A DNA stretch of 35,200 nucleotides from Candidatus Lindowbacteria bacterium RIFCSPLOWO2_12_FULL_62_27 (GTDB lineage: Bacteria; Lindowbacteria; 2-12-FULL-62-27), in NCBI GenBank assembly GCA_001784175.1, contig MFPR01000022.1, positions 1 through 35,200 on the forward strand, in the 5' to 3' direction. Of this stretch, positions 14,306 through 35,200 are shown in pieces (the stretch's first letter is position 1; every line of letters starts with the position of its first letter). Under the pieces are notes generated by a model. The model made no database searches and was not told where the DNA came from. It saw nothing but the letters and a program-made list of their open reading frames with translations. Both the position numbers and the translations under genes were made by a program.

Positions 14306-14386
14306 TAAGTTATTGAAGTTATTGTTCCAGCGAGGAAGGGATTTCATAGGGCTGCGGTGCCAGCCCCTAAGTTATTGAAGTTATTG
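14306..14386. repeat. 19-bp direct repeat (two copies) upstream of the giant beta-helix gene
   Basis: The 19-mer TAAGTTATTGAAGTTATTG occurs at 14306-14324 and again at 14368-14386, 62 bp apart. Each copy contains two adjacent AAGTTATTG 9-mers. The second copy overlaps the left arm of the 21-bp inverted repeat that brackets the RAYT gene. The repeats lie between the RAYT stop codon and the giant gene's start, so they occupy its 5' region; an in-frame ATG at 14305 abuts the first copy. Confidence 0.8.
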
Positions 14387-15369
14387 GATGCGGCCGACGG
14401 GATGGTATTCATCGCAGAGATTCCAGATCGACGCCGGAGGCAAGCTGAATAACAGCCGAAACGGTCTTCCCCAGTTTTTCGGCGATGTCGGTTGTTGAAA
14501 TGCCCTCGCGGCGGGACAGCGCGCAGAAAAGAGCGCGTGCTTTAGAGACCTTCCGCACACGGCCTCCGGCCAGCACGACCCCGCGCCCGACGCCGCAACG
14601 TTCCTCGACCTCACGCCAGATATGCTCCACGTCGATGTCCCGCGGGCGCCGGGCGAGCCGGCGGCGCTCCGCGCGGCGCTCAACCAGCAATTCGACCTTT
14701 TTCCGAAAATCCTCCGGCCCGGTCATCCAGAGATTACGAGCGGGATGCGAATCCGGGACCCGATCATCATCACAGTGTTCCCGGTACGGCGTCTCCCGCA
14801 AAAGCTTGGCGTAGGCGCCGATGCCTCCGGACAATTCGAGGATGAACTCAGAGCAAACCGGGATGTCCGTCGTTCCGCCGAAAAATGCCCTCACACTGCT
14901 CCAGCGATAGTCCCTGACGTCCTCGACCATTCCGGCGTCACGGGGATTAACATGAATGTAGCACGAGCAGATAACCGCATGCTCATCCCGCTCTACAGGC
15001 TCCGGCCTGTGCCGTTCTCCGAATACGTGCCCGGTTCGGCCCATGCTGAGGTTCCAAAAGCGGGCGTATCCGCCTTGCAGACGTTCCATCGCGTGCGGCA
15101 GGCCGACGCCCGTCACATCTTGAATGAGCAGATGTACGTGATTGGTCATGAGACAGTACGTCAATACCCTGATTTTATATGTCGGAAAAATGTCGTTCAA
15201 CCGCCTGATATATTCGAGTTTGAATTCGTCGGTCTGAAAAATATTCTGCCTGTTATTCCCCCGCGCGGTCACATGGTAAAGTCCTTCCGGCACGTGAATT
15301 CTCGGCGCCCTCATCGACTTATCCCCATCCGCGCACCTGAAAAACTTAAATAACTTAGGGGCTGGCACC
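14356..15369 (-). mobile_element. RAYT unit bounded by 21-bp perfect inverted repeats
   Basis: Bases 14356-14376 and 15349-15369 are exact reverse complements over 21 bp (core GGTGCCAGCCCCTAAGTTAT) and bracket a complete RAYT coding region. The GGTGCCAGCCCC core recurs as a tandem copy just outside the right arm. REP/BIME-type repeats next to their cognate transposase are the normal arrangement for RAYTs, which are usually single-copy domesticated relatives of IS200/IS605 transposases. I saw no target-site duplication, so recent movement of the whole unit is not shown. Confidence 0.65.
14409..15314 (-). CDS. REP-associated tyrosine transposase (RAYT, Y1_Tnp/HUH family)
   Basis: This 301-residue protein has the family layout: an N-terminal RIHVPEGLYHVTARGNNRQ strand, the metal-binding HUH motif in TNHVHLLI (His59 and His61), the candidate nucleophile Tyr83 in GGYARFWN, and downstream GHVFGERH, YIHVNPRDAGMV and YRWSSVRAF blocks. 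A C-terminal region of about 100 residues (DIDVEHIWREVEERCGVG ... TTDIAEKLGKTVSAVIQLASG) looks like the DnaA-C/HTH-type DNA-binding extension common in this subgroup. HUH Y1 enzymes nick single-stranded DNA at hairpins through a 5'-phosphotyrosine link. I chose ATG 15314 because a GGGGA Shine-Dalgarno-like sequence precedes it; the frame stays open to 15389, but only by reading through the GGTGCCAGCCCC repeats (MVPAP ... MVPAP). The gene appears intact. Confidence 0.92.
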   Translation of the reverse strand: MRAPRIHVPEGLYHVTARGNNRQNIFQTDEFKLEYIRRLNDIFPTYKIRVLTYCLMTNHVHLLIQDVTGVGLPHAMERLQGGYARFWNLSMGRTGHVFGERHRPEPVERDEHAVICSCYIHVNPRDAGMVEDVRDYRWSSVRAFFGGTTDIPVCSEFILELSGGIGAYAKLLRETPYREHCDDDRVPDSHPARNLWMTGPEDFRKKVELLVERRAERRRLARRPRDIDVEHIWREVEERCGVGRGVVLAGGRVRKVSKARALFCALSRREGISTTDIAEKLGKTVSAVIQLASGVDLESLR

Positions 15370-15393
15370 ATTCGGGGGGCTGGCACCATTCGG
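15359..15393. repeat. Tandem REP-like repeat, 2 x 17 bp
   Basis: GGGCTGGCACCATTCGG occurs at 15359-15375 and 15377-15393, a period of 18 bp, just upstream of the RAYT start. Its GGCTGGCACC core is the reverse complement of the GGTGCCAGCC core at 14356-14365 on the other side of the gene. This is probably the RAYT's cognate repeat. The remaining bases to the next gene (15394-15608) show no convincing gene or hairpin terminator. Confidence 0.75.
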
Positions 15394-15608
15394 ATGGGGA
15401 CAGACCGGCAACGGCGACCGGGCGATCTCCATCGGTCCGGCGTACACCCCGCGCAGTCAATCCCCTCCGGCGCCCCCTCTTGAAGCCGGCCATACGGACT
15501 ACTCCTTCACCCCATCCACGGATCGATGAAACCTGATTCATGTTCTCTAATAGCAGGGGATTGTCAACGGGAAACTCGGGGCCGGGCGAAGAGGGGAGGA
15601 GAAGAAAC

Positions 15609-25158: not shown

Positions 25159-26604
25159 CTACGAAACGTCCACTTCCTTGAACTCGGCCGAGCCGACGCC
25201 TTTGCGCGTCGGGTTGAGGTAAAAGCGCGACGCGCTCTGCGCCTTGTCGATCGAGAGTGTCTGGTCGACGATGATGAGGTGCGTGCCCGGATAGATTTTT
25301 TCGCGGACGCTGACGAATCCCGGTTTGGCGGCGCCCGCCTGCTCCTGGAGGGTCGTCTGTTCGGCGAGGAGCTTTTTCAATTCGGCGCCGTGGGTTTGCG
25401 CGGCGGCGATCATCTGTCGAAGCTGGGTTTCCTTGTCGAGGGGAATCTGCCGCATCCGGGCGCGCAGTTTGTTGAGGGCCTCGACCGCGTGGATGTTCTT
25501 TTCGAATTCGGCCCTGTGCTCGTCGATCAGCTTCTGCACTTCCGCAAGTCTCGCGCGGAGCGCGGGATCGAGGCCGATTTCAACCTGCGTTTCGACGGTG
25601 ATCTCCGCGCCGATGGCCCGGGCCTCGATGCATCCGGCGGCCCGGATCTGGCCGCCGACGATACTCGCGTGTTTTCCGCCGCGCACGACGACGTGCTTGC
25701 CGGCGGTGACGTTGGCGTGCAGAATGATGTCGGCGACGATCACGCTGCCGCCGGCATGGACATTGGCGTTTTCGATGAACTTCGCGGTCACGTTGCCTTT
25801 GGCCGTCACATGAGTCTCCGGCGATCCGATGATCCCCCTTTCGACGACGACGTTGCGGCCGGCCTCCACGAAGGCCTTGGAGACGGACTGGACCACGACG
25901 TCGGCGGTGGCCTTGACTGTGAAGCCCTCGTGGATCGCGCCCTGGATGTTGATGGTTCCGTCGAAATCGATGTTGCCGACGTTGAAATCGACGTCGCCCT
26001 GGTGAACGAGGACGGCATCGACGGACAACACGGCGCCTTGAAGCGTCACGACGCCGGGTCCGGCGGCCGAAAAGCGCGCGCCGTCCTCCGAAACCGTCAC
26101 GTTCGGTCCCGCGGACAGCGCCGCCGCCTGGCCGGGGTTGGCGGGGATTTCCGAGCCAAAGACATCGGCGCCGTTTTCGCCCGGCGTGGGCGGGCGGCGC
26201 GTGGTGAGAAGCTCGCCGGATGTGGCGAAGTTGAGGGAGGAGTACTCCCGGAAGTCGACGCGGCCCTTCTCGTCTTCCGAAACTTTTTCCTCGGACTTTT
26301 GAAGGAAATGATGTTCCAGGGTCCCGTTCTCGCCGGCGCGGGGCGGCCGGCCGCGCACGATCACGAGGGGGCCGCCGAAGTTTCCCGCCTGCAAGTAGGC
26401 GCGCACGGCGTCGCCGTCCACGGATTTGATCCCCAGCTCCGACGCGCGGCCCAGGACCGCGTCCGAATCGACCGCCTTGCCGCCCGGATCGGGCGGCACG
26501 ACTTCAAGCGACGCCATCATCTTGTCGGGCGCCACGGTGACCTCAAACGTCCCGTCGCGCGGTACGCCTGACTTCGCGTCTTCGGCCTTCTGCTCCTCTG
26601 CCAT
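25159..26604 (-). CDS. FapA family (DUF342) protein
   Basis: This 481-residue protein has the FapA layout. An N-terminal domain (to about 200) includes VRAYLQAGNFGGPLVIVRGR and RRPPTPGENGADVFG. A DUF342 beta-helix of short hydrophobic repeats follows (about 200-340: NIDFDGTINIQGAIHEGFTV, NVTAKFIENANVHAGGSVIV, GGQIRAAGCIEARAIGAEI). Then come a coiled coil (about 345-425, VQKLIDEHRAEFEKNIHAVEA ...) and a short C-terminal beta region. Families of this type are named after a Vibrio protein affecting polar flagellar assembly, and bactofilin-like scaffolding is often suggested; no flagellar gene is present here. ATG 26604 has GGAG 7 nt upstream. It is separated from both neighbours by gaps of 84 and about 200 bp, so it may be its own unit. 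Confidence 0.9.
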   Translation of the reverse strand: MAEEQKAEDAKSGVPRDGTFEVTVAPDKMMASLEVVPPDPGGKAVDSDAVLGRASELGIKSVDGDAVRAYLQAGNFGGPLVIVRGRPPRAGENGTLEHHFLQKSEEKVSEDEKGRVDFREYSSLNFATSGELLTTRRPPTPGENGADVFGSEIPANPGQAAALSAGPNVTVSEDGARFSAAGPGVVTLQGAVLSVDAVLVHQGDVDFNVGNIDFDGTINIQGAIHEGFTVKATADVVVQSVSKAFVEAGRNVVVERGIIGSPETHVTAKGNVTAKFIENANVHAGGSVIVADIILHANVTAGKHVVVRGGKHASIVGGQIRAAGCIEARAIGAEITVETQVEIGLDPALRARLAEVQKLIDEHRAEFEKNIHAVEALNKLRARMRQIPLDKETQLRQMIAAAQTHGAELKKLLAEQTTLQEQAGAAKPGFVSVREKIYPGTHLIIVDQTLSIDKAQSASRFYLNPTRKGVGSAEFKEVDVS

Positions 26605-26775
26605 GCGTGATCTCCCCGTCCAGTGATGGAAACTCTCCCCTTGAGACTTTTCGGCAGAACGTGCGTTGGATATTACAGCGCCGGAGAAGGCGGGAAAAGA
26701 CGGCGACCGTGGATCAGCAGGAGAATTTCGACGCGGCGGGATACGAATCGGTACGGGGAAAATGATTTCGCGTGA

Positions 26776-27248
26776 CTTACCAATATTTTCTATTTGTCAT
26801 TTTCTATTGGCTATTTTCTATTTATCATTCGTCCTCGAACTGTTTTGATCGAAGTGGATATAATTCGAGCGAGCTGGTCGTTTTCATCAAGGATATCGTC
26901 AAGCAGGGTCTTCTTCATCAGGCCGCTTTTCGATATCATCTTCAGCCATATCATTGTTTCATTGAGTTCCTTCAATACGACGGACAATTTGTGAACAAAG
27001 TCAGCGTCGCTTTCGGCAGAGCGGGATTCTCCGTAATTGGGAGCGGGCGACGTTCCAGACCGCACTATCTGACGCGCAAGATGTTTGCCGGCCGGCGTTG
27101 GAGGAAGATGTCCGGACAGCTTGATGATTCTTACGCCAAAGTCGATAAGCCTCTCTTCAAGTTCATCCGCTTTCCGCTGATCCATCGATGACGAACTGTA
27201 ATAGAAAATAGCAGATAAACAATGACAAATAGAAAATAGTTTTGTAAG
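26776..27248. repeat. Long nested inverted repeats enclosing the four-helix-bundle gene
   Basis: Bases 26776-26838 and 27185-27248 are reverse complements over about 63 nt at roughly three-quarters identity. They contain two perfect cores: 18 bp (26784-26801 with 27221-27238) and 12 bp (26810-26821 with 27201-27212). The cores are in mirror order and 8 bp apart in both arms. The left arm covers the last codons and stop of the gene and the right arm reaches its start codon, so a transcript could close into a long stem around the whole reading frame. The arms are far more AT-rich than their surroundings. Confidence 0.8.
26811..27185 (-). CDS. Four-helix-bundle protein (S23 / 23S rRNA intervening-sequence protein family)
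   Basis: This 124-residue all-helical protein has the family signature LEERLIDFGVRIIKL ... GKHLARQIVRSGTSPAPNYGE, then SDADFVHKLSVVLKELNET and a final helix ending RMINRK. The pattern RS(G/A)TS-x-x-x-N(Y/I)xE is diagnostic for the family first seen as the open reading frame inside 23S rRNA intervening sequences of Leptospira and Coxiella; free-standing copies are widespread and their function is unknown. No Shine-Dalgarno sequence precedes ATG 27185, and the 5' sequence is the right arm of a long inverted repeat, so translation may depend on RNA structure. No rRNA flanks it here. Confidence 0.9.
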   Translation of the reverse strand: MDQRKADELEERLIDFGVRIIKLSGHLPPTPAGKHLARQIVRSGTSPAPNYGESRSAESDADFVHKLSVVLKELNETMIWLKMISKSGLMKKTLLDDILDENDQLARIISTSIKTVRGRMINRK

Positions 27249-27292
27249 AGGCTGTGGTCAGACGGTCAGCGCACCCTACGACGACATCCCTG

Positions 27293-30200
27293 TCAGCGGA
27301 CGATCGCGAGCTTGTCGATGAGTTTGTTGCCGCTCGATTCGAGGATGTAGATGTAGACGCCCGAGCCGACTTTCTGGCCGTGCTTGTTGGTGGTGTCCCA
27401 CTTGAGCGTCATGTTGAGGCCGGCCTTGCCGGGTTCGGCGAGTTCCCGGATGAGGCGGCCGGCGACGTCATATATCTTGAGTGTGACCGGCGCGTCGGCG
27501 GGCAGACTGTACTTGAAGGTCATCTGGCCGGTGGCGGCGTCCGGGCCCGGATTCGGGTAGACGAACGACTGTTCCTTGTCGAGCGCGGCCGCAAGGAAGG
27601 CGGCGAGATAGTCCGGCAACCCGACGGCCAGGGTCAGTTTGACCGACGAGGACAGCATGACGGCGGTGGAGGCCGCGCTCTTCATGTCGACCGGGCCCGA
27701 CGGACCGCCGATGAGCACGGCGCCGAATTCGCCCGGCACGTTGCTCGCGTCCCACTTCAGCGTCACGGGGCCGGTCGGGCCTGTGACGACCACCGGCCAC
27801 GCGGCCGCCGTTTTCACCGGCGCGCCGATGCTCGCCGCATAGTATTTCCCGGATTCTTCGGCCGGTGATTCCGGCGACGAGGGTTCGCCGATCCATACCT
27901 GCACGTCGCCCGCCATGCCCGGGGCCTTCCAGAGATCGTTCATGTCTTCGTCATTCCGCGCCGCGGGGGCAACGCCCACGAAGTTGTACTCGTCCCGCAC
28001 CTGACTGTCGCCGGTGTAGGCCATGAGCTGGAGCCGCCAACTTGAAATATCCCCTCCCCCCTGCGAGTAGACGGGGGCCGATTGCTTGACCTTGGTCGAC
28101 TGCGGCATGCGCTTGTTGCCGCCGTAATAGACGATGGTGCAGGCCGTGTTGATCTTGACCCAGTATCCGACCCACGGTTTGATCTGCAGAGAATCCTCGC
28201 CGGTGGACGTCAGGGACGCGAGATACTGCCCCGCGCTGTGATCCCGCCACTGGAGTTTGGTGTCGATGTACGTGGTGGTGCGCAATTGGGACAACGGGTA
28301 CTGACACCCTGTTGCATCGGTTTCCACGTAGACGTCGTCAAGCCAGTTGATGAAGTGCGGGAACGGGTTGCCGATCATATTGGCGCCCGCGGTCATGATG
28401 GTTTTCGCGTAGCTGGCGGTGGACACCACGGGAGTCCCGAGAAGCCCGACGGACGTCGCCGACGTCGATTTGAACCAGTAGGCCTGGCCGGTGTCATATT
28501 TAGTGAACTCGCCGTTTGCCGAATTGTTCGGCGAGGCCTGGCCGGTAACCGATTTGTATCTATAAAAGGTCGCGTTCGAAGACGAGATGGTCGGATCGTT
28601 CGAATAGGACAGGCCCGTGCCGCTGTAAGACAACTGGCCAAGACCGGTGAGGGACTGGTCCGGCCGTTTGAAGGGCGAGAACATGACCCATGTGTTCGCC
28701 GGGACATCGCGCTTGTCGGTGTAGACCACGATTTGCGCCTGTCGGGAGCTCGCGCTCGTCGCCGTCACCACATAGATGCCGTTGCCGCTGCCGAGCGTCA
28801 GGGTGATCGACGACGTGAAGCCATTCGAGCCCGTCGTGGTGGACGACGTGGGAGACAACGTCGCGCCGCCGGCGGCGTTGGAGCCGTTATAATCGACGGT
28901 GTAGGACACGGTCGCGTTGGACACGGTGTCGCCGGTGGTGTCGTAGGCGGCGATCCTGAAGGTCATCGAGCCGCCCGCGCTCAGGATGTGGTGGTTGCCG
29001 GTGTCGAACACGAGCGAGTCGCCCGTCGTGCCGCCGCCTTCGATCGTGGCCGTCGCCGTGACCAGAATCAGGCGGGGGCTGTCCAGATAATTGACGCGGA
29101 CCACGTCGCCCGGCCGGACGAAAAGCTTGCCGCTGGCGGCGGCGGAGTGCGAGCTGCTGACCAGCGAGATCGGGAAACTCTCGCGGAAGACGCTTGCGTT
29201 GGCGCTGAGTTCGCCAAGGGTCGCCGTTTCGTATTCGGCGTTGCCCTCGGAGTTGAACGTCACATTTTCAAGCCAGACCTGCACGCTGTCCACGGCGCCG
29301 GTGTTCGCATTCGGATCCGTGTCGTTCACTTCGATCACGATGCTGTCATGCCGGATGGCCTTGTAGGTCGTCGCGACCGATCCGCCCTTCGTCAGCATCT
29401 GCACCGTGCCGAACCGGACGTTCGTGTCGGACCGGAAAGAGCCGGTGGCCGAATAGGCGCTGTTGTTGGCCAGATCGTCGATGGTCCTGACGCGCCAATA
29501 GTATGTGTCGATGTACAAATTCGTGACCGTGTCGCTGGTCCGCGCGCCGTCGATCGTGTCAGAGAAGGTGAGGGACGTAAAGTTGGTGTTCTTGGACACT
29601 TCGAGGGCGAACGAATCGATCCCCACGCTGTCCGAGCCGGCTGTCCACGACACCACAACCTGCGACACGGTCGTCTCGTGGCCGTTGACCGGCAGCATCG
29701 TGTCCGGCCGCGGCGCGTGGGTGTCGACGACGAATCCACGCGCGGTCGAGTGCGCGCTGACGTTGCCGAGATCGTCAATTGCGCGGACGTGCCAGAAGTA
29801 CGTGTCGTTGTAGAGAGGCGACGCGGTCCGGCTGGCGGTGGCGGCGTCGAAGGTGTCGTTGATGGCCATCATCGTGAAGTTGCTGTTCTTCGACAGCTCG
29901 ATCGCGTAGCTGTCCAAGCCTACGCTGTCGGAAACCGCAGTCCATGAGAGCACGATAGAGGTGTTCGTGGTCTCATGCGCGTCGGCCGGCTGGCTGAGCG
30001 TTGTGACGTTGACGAGAGTGTCGACGACGAATCCCCGCGTGGCCGAATTGGGGCCGACATTGGCCAGATCGTCGATCGCGCGGACACGCCAGAAATAGGT
30101 GTCGTTATACGTGCCCGTGATGTAATCGGTGGTCGCCGTGCCGTCGACGGTGTCGGCGAAGACGGTCGTGGCGAACGACGTGCCTTTGGACGCCTCGACC

Positions 30201-33200
30201 ACGAATGAATCGATCCCCACGCTGTCGTCCAGGATGGCCCAACTGACCGGGATCGACAGCGCGGTGGTTTCTGTTCCGTCGGCCGGCGCGGACACCGTCA
30301 CCTGGCTCGCGTGCGTGTCGAGGAGAACCGTCTGGGTGGCCGTGGTGTCGGTCAGGGCGCCGACCGCCACGGTGCTGATGACGCCCACGCGCCAGAAGTA
30401 GGTGTCTTCGCGGGGCAGCTTGAAGGTGGTGTCCGTGGCCGCGTCGAATACCTGCTGCGCGAGGATGGAGGCGAAGGTCGACACCTGCGATATCTGGAAT
30501 ATGTAGGTGTCGACATTCGAGCCGCTCCACTGGAAGACGATGTTTGCGTTGGTCGTATCGTGCGCGACCGTCGGGGACACCAGCGCGACGCCGAAGGACG
30601 TGTCGACCTTGAAGGCGAACGTCTCCGAATAGGCGCCGGCATTGGCCAGATCGTCGATCGCCTTGACGCGCCAGTAATAGTGGGTGTCGCCGATGAGTTC
30701 CTTGGTGGTCGAATCGGTGAAGGTTCCATTTCTTGTGTCGACGTGGAGCGTCTGCGCGAACGACGTGTCCCGGGCAATCTCGACCACGTACGAATCGACG
30801 CCCACGCTGTCCGAAATCGCCTGCCAGGTCAGGGTCGGGGTCGTGTCCGTCGTCACGGCGTTGTTGACCGGCAACAGCAGCGTGACTTTCGCGATGATCG
30901 TGTCCGTCACGAATCCCCGGGTCGACGAATACGCGCCGGCGTTGGCGCGGTTGTCGACCGCGCGAACGCGCCAGTAGTACGTGTCATTGTACAAGCCGGT
31001 CACGGTGTCGCTGGTGAACGCGCCGTCGATCGTGTCGGTGAACGCGATGCCCGTGAAGCCGGTGTTCTTCGACACCTCCACCGCGTAGCTGTCGATCCCG
31101 ACGCTGTCGGCCAGCGTGCTCCAGCTTACGAGGAAGTTGGTGGCTGACGTTTCATGCGCGTCGGCCGGCAACGACAGAGCCACGGCGCCGATCAGGGTGT
31201 CGGTCACGAACCCGCGCATGGTTGACCATGCGCCGCCGTTGCCCAGATCGTCGACCGCTCTGACATGCCAGAAATAGGTGTCGTTGTAGAGACCGGTCAC
31301 GGTGTCGCTGGTGAATGCCTGATCGATCGTGTCCGTGAACGCCAGATTCGTGAATAGCGAGTTCTTCGAAACCTCCACGGCATAGCTGTCCACACCCACG
31401 CTGTCCGTAACCGAACTCCAACTCACCACGACGCTGGTCACCGCTGTCTCGTGACCGTCGGACGGCTGGCTCAGGCTTACCACCTTCACGATCGTGTCCG
31501 CGATGAATCCCCGCGTGGTCGAGAAGGATCCGCCGTTGGCGAGGTTGTCGACCGCCCGGACGCGCCAGAAGTATGTGTCGTTGTAAAGTCCGGTGATCGC
31601 GTCGCTCGTAGAGGCGCCATCGATCGTATCGGTGAAGGCGATGCTCGTGAAGCCCGTGTTCTTCGACACCTCCACCGCGTAGCTGTCGATCCCGACGCTG
31701 TCGGCCAGCGCGGTCCAGCTTGCCGAGAAGTTGACGGCATTTGTTTCATGCGCGTCCGCTGGCAGGGACAACGTCACCTGGCCGATGAGTGTGTCGACGA
31801 CGAATCCGCGTGCGCTCGAATAGGCGCTCACGTTGCCCAGGCCGTCGATGGACCGGACGCGCCAGAAATGCGTGTCATTGTAGAAGGGCGACACGTTGAG
31901 GACGTTGGCGCCGGTGATGGCCTGGAAGGTGAGGCCGAGCGGCGTCAGTATGGTAAAACTGCTGTTCTTCGCTATCTCCACCGCGTAGCTGTCCAAGCCG
32001 ACGCTGTCCGGCTCCGCGGTCCAGCTCAACCGGACGTTCGTGGCGGTGGTTTCGTGCCCGTCCGCCGGCCCGGTGGGCGAAGGGGCAGTGACAATGGTGT
32101 CGGTCACGAACCCCCTCGAGGTCGACCAAGCGCCGCCGTTGCCGAGGTCGTCGATGGCCCGGGCACGCCAGTGGTAGGTGTCGTTGTAGAGGCCGGTGAC
32201 GGTGTCGGACGTGTTAGCCTGGTCGACGGTGTCGGTAAACGCCAGATTCGTGTAGTCTGAATTTTTCGAGACTTCGACCGCGTAGGAATCAACGCCGACG
32301 CTGTCGGAAACGGCAGTCCACCGGACGACAAAATCGATCGCCGTCGTCTCGTGGCCGTCCGCCGGAAGGGACGCGGACACCTGGTTCACGATCGTGTCCG
32401 TCACAAACCCGAGGGTCACCGAGAACGAGCCGCTGTTGGCCAGAGTGTCGATTGCGCGCACCCGCCAGTAATACGTATCGTTATAGAGGCCCGTCACCGT
32501 GTCGTTCGTGAACGATCCGTCCACCGTGTCCGTGAAGGCGATGCTTGTGAAGGCCGTGTTTTTCGACACCTCCACTGCGTAGCTGTCGATCCCGACGCTG
32601 TCGGCCAGCGCGGACCAGCTCACCAAAATGTTGATCGCCGTCGTTTCGTGGCTGTTCGCCGGCTGCGAGGCGCTCACCTGGTTGACACTCGTGTCGAGGA
32701 CGATCGACCGCGTCGCTGTGGTGTCCACCGTGTTGGTGGACCCCCGCGTTCCAATGACACGCCAGTAAAAGGTGTCCTGGTCGGGCAAAGCCTTTGTGCA
32801 GGACGTGACGGTCGTGTCGGCAACGGTGAGCAGGATGCTGGAAAATGAAGCCGATCTCGACAACTGCCACGTGTACGTGTCGACGTTGGTCCCGGCCCAA
32901 TTGAACACCACGGTGCCGTTCGTCGTCTCATGGCCGTCCGCAGGGCTGGTCAGAGAGATGGAGAAGTTGGTGTCGACCTTGAACGCGAACGAGTCCGCGG
33001 CTGCGAGGGTGCCGGCGTTCCCCAGATCATCGATCGCCTTGACGCGCCAGTAATAGGTCGTGTCGCCATACAGAACCACGGTCGTCGAATCGGTCGACGC
33101 GCCGTCCCGCGTGTCCTCGTGCAGAATCGCAGAAAACGTCGAGTCGCCTTTTGATATATGGAGAACGTAACTGTCGATCCCCACGCTGTCCGACACCGCG

Positions 33201-35200
33201 CCCCACGCCAACGTCGGGGTCGAGTCAGCAATGACCGCGTTGTTGGACGGCGTCGACAGCGCCGGCTTGTTCACGATCGTGTCCGTCACAAACCCGCGGG
33301 TCGACGAAAACGACCCGGCGTTGCCCAGATCGTCGATCGCGCGCACGCGCCAGTAGTACGTATCGTTGTAGAGTCCCGTCACCGTGTCGGCCGTGAACGC
33401 CTGGTCGAACGTGTCCGTGAAGGCGATGTTGCTAAACCCCGTATTTTTCGATACCTCCACCGCGTAACTGTCCACGCCCACGCTGTCGCTTGCCGCGCTC
33501 CAGCTCACCTGAAAGCCGATCGACGTCGTCTCGTGGCCGTCCGCCGGGAGCGACAGGCTCACCGTGTTCACGATCGTGTCCGTCACGAACCCCCGCGTTG
33601 CCGAGTACGATCCGCCGTTGGCCAGATCGTCGATCGCGCGCACGCGCCAGTAATACGTATCATTGTATAACCCCGTCACCGTGTCGCTCGTCAAGGCTTG
33701 GTCGATCGTGTCGGTAAAGACCATGTTCGAGACAAAGTTCGAATTCTTCGCGACTTCCACCGCGTAGCTGTCCACCCCCACGCTGTCCGAGACCACGCTC
33801 CAGCTCACCACGATGTTGATCGCCGTCGTCTCGTGCGCGTCCGCAGGCTGCGACGCGCTCACCTGGTTCACCAGCGTGTCCGTCACAAAGCCCCGCGTCG
33901 ACGAGTACGACCCGCCGTTCGCCAGATCGTCCACTGCGCGCACGCGCCAGTAATACGTATCGTTGTAGAGACCCGTCACCGTATCGCTCGTCAATACGCC
34001 GTCCACCGTGTCCGTGAACGCGATGTTCGTGAACCCTGTATTCTTCGATACCTCCACCGCGTAACTGTCCACACTCACGCTGTCCGAGACCACGCTCCAG
34101 CTCACCAGAATGTTGATCGCCGTCGTCTCGTGGCCGTCCGCAGGCTGTGACAGGCTCACTGTGTTCACGATCGTGTCCGTCACAAAGCCCCGCGCTGTCG
34201 AAAACGTCCCCTGGTTCCCCAGATCGTCCACCGCTCGCACACGCCAGTAATACGTATCGTTGTAGAGACCCGTCACCGTGTCGCTCGTCAAGGCCTGGTC
34301 CAGCGTGTCCGTAAAGATCATGTTGCTGAACCCCGTGTTTTTCGATACCTCCACCGCGTAACTGTCGATCCCCACGCTGTCGGCCAGAGCGGTCCAGCTC
34401 ACCACAATATTGATCGCCGTCGTCTCGTGGCCGTCCGCCGGCTGGGACAGGCTCACTGTGTTCACGATCGTGTCCGCCACAAAGCCCCGCGTCGCCGTAT
34501 ACGGACCGCCGTTGCCCAGATCGTCGATCGCGCGCATACGCCAATAATATGTGTCGTTGTAAATCCCGGTGGGCGTCGAAAGGGTCGTGCCGCTGTCCAC
34601 CGTGTCCGTGATCACGTTCGTAAAATTCGTGTTCTTGGATACTTCCACCGCGTAGCTGTCGATCCCCACACTGTCGCTCACCGCGGTCCATACAAACGCG
34701 ACGTAGAGCGACACGGTCTCCAATCCGTCCGCTGGCTGCAGCAGGCTCACCACGTTCACGATCGTGTCCGTCACAAATCCACGCGTCGCCGAAAACGACC
34801 CGCCGTTCGCCAGGTCATCGACGCCGCGGACACGCCAATAATACGTGTCGTTGTACAAGCCCGTCACCGTGTCGTTGGTGAAGGCGCCATCCACCGTGTC
34901 CGTGAACGCGATGTTCGAAAAGCTCGTGTTCTTCGATACCTCCACTGCGTAACTGTCGATCCCCACGCTGTCGGCCAGCGCGGTCCAGCCCACCAGGAAA
35001 TTGATCGCCGTCGTCTCATGCCCGTCCGCCGGCAAAGAGGCGCTCACTTGGTTGACGCTCGTGTCGAGAACAATCGCGCGGACGCCAGTCGTATCGAACG
35101 TGCTTGTGGCCACCCTCTGCCCGATGACGCGCCAGTAAAAGGTGTCCGGATCCGGCAGGGCCTTCGTGCAGGACGGGACCGACGTGTCGGCCACGGTCAA
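27293..35200 (-). CDS. Giant Fn3-repeat surface protein with C-terminal sorting domain (5' end beyond window)
   Basis: The visible 2,635 residues are the C-terminal part of a larger protein. Residues 1 to about 1,928 are roughly 20 fibronectin-III-like domains of about 98 residues. Each typically has PADGHETTAI, SDSVGIDSYAVEVSKN, YNDTYYWRVRAIDDL and TRGFVTDT. An Ig-like tail follows (EVNDTDPN, SGKLFVRPGDVVRVNYLD, VVYTDKRDVPAN). Next is a region with AYWFKS, MIGNPFPHFINW and IKPWVGYWVKI, often found ahead of type IX sorting domains. The last 90 residues (YPNPGPDAATGQ ... LKIYDVAGRLIREL ... GSGVYIYILESSG) form a FlgD-like/T9SS-type C-terminal domain. This implies export and surface anchoring. 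No enzyme domain is visible; an adhesive or structural role is an inference. The stop is TGA at 27295-27293; the start lies outside the window. Confidence 0.93.
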   Translation of the reverse strand: MTVADTSVPSCTKALPDPDTFYWRVIGQRVATSTFDTTGVRAIVLDTSVNQVSASLPADGHETTAINFLVGWTALADSVGIDSYAVEVSKNTSFSNIAFTDTVDGAFTNDTVTGLYNDTYYWRVRGVDDLANGGSFSATRGFVTDTIVNVVSLLQPADGLETVSLYVAFVWTAVSDSVGIDSYAVEVSKNTNFTNVITDTVDSGTTLSTPTGIYNDTYYWRMRAIDDLGNGGPYTATRGFVADTIVNTVSLSQPADGHETTAINIVVSWTALADSVGIDSYAVEVSKNTGFSNMIFTDTLDQALTSDTVTGLYNDTYYWRVRAVDDLGNQGTFSTARGFVTDTIVNTVSLSQPADGHETTAINILVSWSVVSDSVSVDSYAVEVSKNTGFTNIAFTDTVDGVLTSDTVTGLYNDTYYWRVRAVDDLANGGSYSSTRGFVTDTLVNQVSASQPADAHETTAINIVVSWSVVSDSVGVDSYAVEVAKNSNFVSNMVFTDTIDQALTSDTVTGLYNDTYYWRVRAIDDLANGGSYSATRGFVTDTIVNTVSLSLPADGHETTSIGFQVSWSAASDSVGVDSYAVEVSKNTGFSNIAFTDTFDQAFTADTVTGLYNDTYYWRVRAIDDLGNAGSFSSTRGFVTDTIVNKPALSTPSNNAVIADSTPTLAWGAVSDSVGIDSYVLHISKGDSTFSAILHEDTRDGASTDSTTVVLYGDTTYYWRVKAIDDLGNAGTLAAADSFAFKVDTNFSISLTSPADGHETTNGTVVFNWAGTNVDTYTWQLSRSASFSSILLTVADTTVTSCTKALPDQDTFYWRVIGTRGSTNTVDTTATRSIVLDTSVNQVSASQPANSHETTAINILVSWSALADSVGIDSYAVEVSKNTAFTSIAFTDTVDGSFTNDTVTGLYNDTYYWRVRAIDTLANSGSFSVTLGFVTDTIVNQVSASLPADGHETTAIDFVVRWTAVSDSVGVDSYAVEVSKNSDYTNLAFTDTVDQANTSDTVTGLYNDTYHWRARAIDDLGNGGAWSTSRGFVTDTIVTAPSPTGPADGHETTATNVRLSWTAEPDSVGLDSYAVEIAKNSSFTILTPLGLTFQAITGANVLNVSPFYNDTHFWRVRSIDGLGNVSAYSSARGFVVDTLIGQVTLSLPADAHETNAVNFSASWTALADSVGIDSYAVEVSKNTGFTSIAFTDTIDGASTSDAITGLYNDTYFWRVRAVDNLANGGSFSTTRGFIADTIVKVVSLSQPSDGHETAVTSVVVSWSSVTDSVGVDSYAVEVSKNSLFTNLAFTDTIDQAFTSDTVTGLYNDTYFWHVRAVDDLGNGGAWSTMRGFVTDTLIGAVALSLPADAHETSATNFLVSWSTLADSVGIDSYAVEVSKNTGFTGIAFTDTIDGAFTSDTVTGLYNDTYYWRVRAVDNRANAGAYSSTRGFVTDTIIAKVTLLLPVNNAVTTDTTPTLTWQAISDSVGVDSYVVEIARDTSFAQTLHVDTRNGTFTDSTTKELIGDTHYYWRVKAIDDLANAGAYSETFAFKVDTSFGVALVSPTVAHDTTNANIVFQWSGSNVDTYIFQISQVSTFASILAQQVFDAATDTTFKLPREDTYFWRVGVISTVAVGALTDTTATQTVLLDTHASQVTVSAPADGTETTALSIPVSWAILDDSVGIDSFVVEASKGTSFATTVFADTVDGTATTDYITGTYNDTYFWRVRAIDDLANVGPNSATRGFVVDTLVNVTTLSQPADAHETTNTSIVLSWTAVSDSVGLDSYAIELSKNSNFTMMAINDTFDAATASRTASPLYNDTYFWHVRAIDDLGNVSAHSTARGFVVDTHAPRPDTMLPVNGHETTVSQVVVSWTAGSDSVGIDSFALEVSKNTNFTSLTFSDTIDGARTSDTVTNLYIDTYYWRVRTIDDLANNSAYSATGSFRSDTNVRFGTVQMLTKGGSVATTYKAIRHDSIVIEVNDTDPNANTGAVDSVQVWLENVTFNSEGNAEYETATLGELSANASVFRESFPISLVSSSHSAAASGKLFVRPGDVVRVNYLDSPRLILVTATATIEGGGTTGDSLVFDTGNHHILSAGGSMTFRIAAYDTTGDTVSNATVSYTVDYNGSNAAGGATLSPTSSTTTGSNGFTSSITLTLGSGNGIYVVTATSASSRQAQIVVYTDKRDVPANTWVMFSPFKRPDQSLTGLGQLSYSGTGLSYSNDPTISSSNATFYRYKSVTGQASPNNSANGEFTKYDTGQAYWFKSTSATSVGLLGTPVVSTASYAKTIMTAGANMIGNPFPHFINWLDDVYVETDATGCQYPLSQLRTTTYIDTKLQWRDHSAGQYLASLTSTGEDSLQIKPWVGYWVKINTACTIVYYGGNKRMPQSTKVKQSAPVYSQGGGDISSWRLQLMAYTGDSQVRDEYNFVGVAPAARNDEDMNDLWKAPGMAGDVQVWIGEPSSPESPAEESGKYYAASIGAPVKTAAAWPVVVTGPTGPVTLKWDASNVPGEFGAVLIGGPSGPVDMKSAASTAVMLSSSVKLTLAVGLPDYLAAFLAAALDKEQSFVYPNPGPDAATGQMTFKYSLPADAPVTLKIYDVAGRLIRELAEPGKAGLNMTLKWDTTNKHGQKVGSGVYIYILESSGNKLIDKLAIVR
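29415..35200 (-). repeat. Array of about 20 Fn3-like domains with an eight-domain super-repeat
   Basis: Domain types, in reading order from 35200, are: C (partial), A x6, B, C, A x6, B, C, A x3. Type A carries DSVGIDSYAVEVSKN and YNDTYYWRVRA. Type B (33270-32965 and 30890-30600) carries TPTLAW / TPTLTW and SFAFKVDT / TFAFKVDT. Type C (32964-32685 and 30597-30305) carries NVDTY and lacks the DSVGID motif. The marker GTGTCGAG at the end of each C domain lies at 35061, 32691 and 30315, giving periods of 2,370 and 2,376 bp, which are 790 and 792 codons. Confidence 0.85.

Follow-up and report, generated by a model that had tools for sequence, protein, structure and literature searches.

An S23 gene enclosed by inverted heptamer arms is probably a free-standing mobile relative of 23S rRNA intervening sequences

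Results

A four-helix-bundle gene lies between its own inverted arms

Within the window, by which we mean the whole 35,200-nt stretch of DNA analysed, a 473-nt element occupies positions 26776-27248 on the reverse strand. Its sole recognised gene, S23, which codes for a four-helix-bundle protein of 124 amino acids, lies at 26811-27185 on that strand and starts with an ATG at 27185. The 5′ arm (27185-27248 on the reverse strand, which is the S23 sense strand; heptamer core at 27200-27239) pairs with the 3′ arm (26776-26838, reverse strand; heptamer core at 26784-26829), and the inner end of the latter encodes the C-terminus of S23, including its last residues and the TAG stop codon (M I N R K stop). 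Both flanking genes read in the same direction as S23. Downstream lies a 481-aa ORF (25159-26604, reverse strand) that we take, by eye, to be FapA/DUF342-like; upstream, a long repetitive ORF (27293-35200, reverse strand) runs off the window and stops 45 nt short of the element. No transposase was found between the arms, and Rfam gave no rRNA match in the window, in agreement with a preliminary description of this locus that had presented the gene as a copy without surrounding rRNA. A scan for rRNA-embedded S23 copies in 40 sources (the window and 39 other loci) found none.

The same description had proposed arms of about 63 nt that pair across the whole gene. Alignment confirmed the pairing of 26776-26838 with 27185-27248 (81.5%, score 63). 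With loops of up to 1.3 kb allowed, this is the strongest inverted repeat of the 35 kb, followed by one around a Y1 transposase (score 50) and then by one scoring 30. The ungapped core of the arms covers 39 nt at 90% (26784-26822 and 27200-27238), and the maximum score reached by composition-matched shuffles of the two arms (n=2000) was 35, compared to 70 observed. Read from the sequence, the arms are made of tandem degenerate heptamers (TTTTCTA, TTTGTCA, TTTTCTA, TTGGCTA, TTTTCTA and TTTATCA). The AT-richness that had been noted for the unit is real but resides mostly in the arms, whose GC content of 28% compares with 49% for the interior of the ORF and 62-65% for the flanking DNA. Its 473 nt fall within the 415-1089 nt (median 500) spanned by 108 relatives.

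The family call made beforehand was borne out by profile searches, in which the ORF matched PF05635 (23S_rRNA_IVP) with 51 bits (cut-off 33.8) and TIGR02436 with 82.7 bits (cut-off 24), and by an AlphaFold2 model that is a helical bundle with a pLDDT of 96. The PDB structures nearest to this model were 2rld and 2gsc, both of the S23 family, and then the Avd structures 4dwl and 8ub7, with TM values of 0.65-0.69. S23 is under purifying selection: dN/dS was ∼0.07-0.16 in WOR-3, NaphS2 and cross-phylum pairs, and higher (∼0.27-0.35) in two recently diverged pairs within a genome. As a separate observation, one genome (G010; loci L028, L075 and L076) holds 19 partial PF05635 matches, many of them as closely spaced divergent pairs, and differs in this from the other genomes surveyed.

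Intervening sequences (IVSs) of 23S rRNA contain S23 ORFs in stem-loops that are cut by RNase III. The sense RNA of the window element was likewise predicted to fold so that the arms pair into a single stem enclosing the gene (-145 kcal/mol, z -4.2), as the preliminary description had anticipated. In the transcript, the gene would then occupy the loop of a long duplex made by the arms, and RNase III may cut this predicted stem by analogy with the 23S IVSs. A search of 26500-27600 gave no sigma-70-like promoter, and S23 may be expressed by read-through, which would explain the orientation of the elements: S23 is in sense in 37 of the 41 that lie between two codirectional genes (37:4, with a few duplicate sites included). 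Several elements adjoin codirectional tRNA or tmRNA genes, and those at the nrd and cas sites described below are antisense. Sense placement fits read-through expression, as with the IVS in rRNA, and selection alone can explain it.

Heptad arms surround most S23 genes and vary together with them

Inverted arms were scored in two surveys. The first comprised 64 S23 loci from the window's own and related genomes (60 genomes searched), and in 42 of them the arms scored higher than the 99th percentile of mismatched-pair controls; a few loci at contig edges were scored at wrong positions, which should only lower this count, arm scores are strand-symmetric, and contamination or breaks at repeats are possible in metagenome-assembled genomes. 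The second comprised 80 S23 loci of named genomes from 23 or more phyla, with shifted positions of the same loci as controls. Of the 79 that were scored, 65 exceeded the 99th percentile of their controls and 60 the control maximum. The same arm pattern was seen at 7 of 8 S23 loci on viral contigs, on cyanobacterial plasmids and in a further genome sample, and about 18% (second survey) to a third (first survey) of the S23 loci showed no arms by the scoring test. The anatomy of the window element is thus that of most S23 loci surveyed. The best arm period was 7 or 14 in 90 of 108 cases and 8, 15 or 16 in another 11 (together 101 of 108), while the unit sequences differ among arms despite the common period.

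Period-7 repeats also dominate in the window's own genome, where they account for five of the top six long inverted repeats in 400 kb, all five in an S23 cluster at 215-219 kb of contig C4. The S23 copy at 217 kb of C4 has perfectly complementary arms of 36 nt with an AGACAGA unit, the copy on contig C6 has an 8-nt arm unit of CAATGAAC type, and copy L004 has arms of GACAGAA type, with similar GACAGA-type units at L325 and L327 in other genomes.

Arm similarity rose with S23 identity in cross-phylum pairs, chiefly in the same orientation (Mantel rho 0.37, compared to at most 0.13 in 300 permutations, with phyla as groups and genomes without a name counted as separate groups). The S23 tree contained 41 phylum changes over 73 rows and 23 phyla (shuffled mean 57, floor 22) and combines a partial vertical signal with much transfer.

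Relatives hold multiple copies, gene-less derivatives and empty sites

One related genome, G055, carries four near-identical copies of the S23 gene whose flanks are unrelated outside the arms, together with about 35 gene-less copies that consist of the two element ends, many of them as 201-nt tandem arrays. Gene-less hairpin arrays of this period, with a second hairpin in the spacer, were noted at C5:158252-159377 and on contigs C21, C22, C24, C25, C26 and C7 of G055, several at contig ends. In the window's own genome, C4:215040-215220 is an L004 element with an internal deletion that kept both ends, and solo heptamer arrays with the L004 unit stand in intergenic gaps. One AGACAGA family accounts for two S23 elements, one copy without the gene and one solo end in the surrounding cluster (C4:215040-219396; L073, L186-L192); nucleotidyltransferase-like and retropepsin-like genes also lie between arms there, and the second S23 gene, which is truncated, contains a gene-less heptamer hairpin.

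Occupied and empty versions of the same site were found on cyanobacterial plasmids. Between nrdA and nrdB, Nostoc edaphicum has an S23 element (L304) where Calothrix NIES-4105 has a 40-nt gap between the annotated genes (L310); the ends of the element are the ends of its arms, and no target duplication is visible at this one clean junction, with flanks that are 85% identical. Between cas1 and cas2, an S23 element is present in Anabaena PCC 7122 and Nostoc TCL26-01 (L306 and L307), compared to 0-2 nt in two other Nostoc plasmids (L308 and L309). Three WOR-3 species with a common hdr operon hold an S23 element in one (L095) and a gene-less hairpin of 8-nt units in the other two (L098 and L099) at one site, and S23 in all three at a second. 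Because of the gene-less hairpin, the first of these sites was rejected as a clean empty site. Interrupted genes were rejected as a source of empty sites, since the ORFs of joined flanks indicated mostly intergenic insertion. The exception was a split Y1 transposase gene in Scytonema NIES-4073 (L159, 3716-4700), in which the middle ∼120 residues are missing; the S23 element in it has CCCC..GGGG mini-hairpins at its outer ends and arms that occur dozens of times across the genome. Cyanobacterial plasmids (L306, L307, L300-L302) were also seen to hold S23 genes both between cas1 and cas2, in antisense, and between drmD and the methyltransferase of DISARM-like loci.

For the copy in the window, no second element with its arms was found elsewhere in its own genome (E≤1e-3) and no empty allele of its site was found; the orthologues of its neighbours in two family relatives (G001 and G002) differ in context, and those of the 481-aa ORF have no element upstream. 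The preliminary description had seen in this copy a small mobile unit resembling a free-standing IVS, to be recognised by further copies and empty sites. Relatives supplied the near-identical copies, the gene-less forms and the empty nrdA/nrdB and cas1/cas2 sites, so that the proposal holds for the class, while movement of the window copy itself was not seen. As a class, the arm-S23-arm unit inserts in intergenic gaps, multiplies, leaves gene-less hairpins, crosses phyla together with its arms and keeps S23 under selection.

S23 genes co-occur with Y1 transposases

Matches to Y1_Tnp were present in all 24 genomes with S23 and in 17 of the 36 without it (p 7e-6; p 1e-5 for genomes of at least 2 Mb). 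A replicate among G055 relatives gave a weaker association (40/46 with S23 and 5/15 without, p 1.5e-4), and both samples are phylogenetically structured. Six S23-bearing genomes of the replicate had no Y1 match, and one of them, G114, is 96% complete and has several S23 genes. Neither RVT_1 (7/24 with S23, 10/36 without) nor DDE_Tnp_1 (14/24 and 19/36) was associated with S23, and RVT_1 had no match in G055 or on the window's contig, C22.

The window's own genome (G000) has eight Y1 matches, one of which lies in the window at 14991-15281 and is bounded by GGTGCCAGCCCC repeats, unlike the arms of the S23 element. This match belongs to a Y1/RAYT-type transposase gene at 14409-15506 on the reverse strand, with the HUH motif NHVHLL; the gene is bounded by a 30-nt inverted repeat (GGTGCCAGCCCCTAAGTTATT..., 14356-14385 and 15340-15369) that is the second-strongest in the window. 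Heptamer arms were mostly absent at 20 Y1 loci, and the idea that the heptad arms belong directly to RAYT was rejected because RAYT loci are mostly without heptamers. As a further observation, a RAYT-like Y1 domain in G055 (L285, C5 ∼26.3-26.8 kb) lies in frame within an 817-aa ORF that is otherwise restriction-modification-like.

Discussion

Our results make it probable that the S23 unit is a free-standing mobile element of IVS type with MITE-like derivatives. The unit of this class would be one S23 gene of Avd fold inside inverted tandem arms of 7 nt, or of 8 nt in some relatives. Like the 23S rRNA IVSs of Leptospira and Coxiella, it has an S23 gene in the loop, a stem of inverted ends and a length of 400-500 nt, and gene-bearing forms occur beside ORF-less or gene-less ones in both; ORF-less IVSs are known (PMC2672173). 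Heptamers are a further likeness: the 5′ arm of the Coxiella IVS contains three GACAGAT heptamers and one GACAGAA, in a number that varies between strains (PMC4990558), and GACAGA-type units occur at L004, L325 and L327. In contrast to IVSs, the free-standing elements lie outside rRNA, in protein-coding operons, tRNA operons, plasmids and viral contigs, mostly have both arms heptad and form multi-copy families. The Coxiella heptamers were the only published hint that we found; no description of heptad inverted arms around free-standing S23 came up in a search that left most subscription journals and bioRxiv outside, so that a prior one is possible. Where 23S rRNA IVSs and the abundant S23 family come from, how they move and what they do have been open questions since about 1990 (reviewed in PMC4990558).

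The resemblance to Avd of diversity-generating retroelements extends to the four-helix-bundle fold, whereas the window's contig has no RVT_1 match and the element has inverted heptad arms instead. Compared to an insertion sequence, the inverted arms are present but an own transposase is absent, and copies at multiple sites were found in relatives but not for the window element. MITEs and REPINs are hairpins that lack a gene and depend on enzymes supplied in trans for their movement, in the case of REPINs on RAYT Y1 transposases. The S23 class is like them in having gene-less hairpins beside gene-bearing parents, in its co-occurrence with Y1 and in the lack of target duplication at the one clean junction; it differs in that the parent element carries S23 and no transposase and that the ends are variable heptad arrays and not REP palindromes. 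Hairpin ends in single-stranded DNA are the substrate of IS200/IS605-type Y1 enzymes, which leave no target duplication, and this fits the nrd junction. It is conceivable, though we hold it with considerable doubt, that the element is moved in trans by a Y1/HUH transposase of IS200/RAYT type; S23 could serve as an adaptor that binds DNA/RNA and picks out the arms around its own gene, and the two steps together are offered just as tentatively. Heptad- or octad-armed S23 units could then be widespread minimal mobile elements without a catalytic protein of their own, whose S23 adaptor hijacks a resident HUH (Y1) enzyme in trans, and IVSs and orphan heptamer repeats might be their insertions and remnants, a proposal that we make in the same speculative spirit. 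Given the Y1-less genomes with S23 and the heptamer-less Y1 loci, the role of Y1 is to be read as a correlation, confounded by phylogeny and maybe reflecting general mobile-element load.

Mobility could also act at the RNA level, with S23, as a relative of Avd, handing the RNA stem-loop over to a reverse transcriptase, whose cDNA would return into transcribed regions. The fold match to Avd of DGR ribonucleoproteins, the 37:4 sense-strand bias, the closed predicted RNA stem, the elements beside codirectional tRNA or tmRNA genes and the position of published IVSs in rRNA all favour this route, but selection for expression by read-through would produce the sense bias as well. Because RVT_1 is unassociated with S23 and absent from G055, a genome that holds four copies with the gene and about 35 without it, retro-mobility was dropped from the main route to a rival that we now regard as quite unlikely. 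It is unlikely, too, that the unit is an immobile RNA-processing cassette, serving the host or itself, whose stem cuts or protects the operon mRNA while S23 binds the stem. The strong purifying selection on S23, its long persistence at a shared site across three WOR-3 species and its sense position within operons agree with such a role; mobility is indicated instead by families with multiple copies, by derivatives that lack the gene, by empty sites and by spread across phyla, although for the window copy the two are not exclusive.

Heptamer repeats of unexplained origin have been described in Beggiatoaceae (TAACTGA), cyanobacteria (STRRs) and Bacteroidetes; they are intergenic direct repeats in tandem, of scattered phylogeny, and the mechanism of their spread was stated as unknown (PMC4679880). 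A text search of that paper found no inverted arms around S23 for them. The published repeats, together with the solo heptamer arrays without S23 in the window's own genome, could mean that heptad arrays are independent intergenic repeats between which S23 genes merely accumulate. We consider this improbable, since the arms co-vary with S23 sequence across phyla, their inversion around S23 is far above controls, arms and gene move as one unit that ends at the arms, and the solo arrays fit remnants. AT-rich, low-complexity arms could inflate pairing and so produce an inverted repeat by chance or artefact; with composition-matched shuffles never near the observed score and the pattern recurring in three samples, the probability of this is close to negligible.

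If S23 units are free-standing mobile elements of IVS type, the fixed arm periodicity of 7 or 8 nt that is common to free-standing copies of many phyla and to the Coxiella IVS provides a simple sequence definition of the element and links IVSs with a family that is mobile and has derivatives lacking the gene. S23 elements would also be a candidate source of the unexplained heptamer repeats, and the mechanism can be tested with a construct of less than a kilobase.

Two minor observations concern the arms of other elements. An arm motif, AATATCGAACAAGGAAT or AATATCGAACCGCAGAAT, is common to L116, L130, L139, L149, L151, L154, L161 and L163, from Thermodesulfobacteriota, Planctomycetota, Bacteroidota and others. 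In one genome of Cloacimonadota, two copies (L124 and L131) have the outer terminus AAGTGGGT at both ends beyond the heptamers, which is possibly a true element end.
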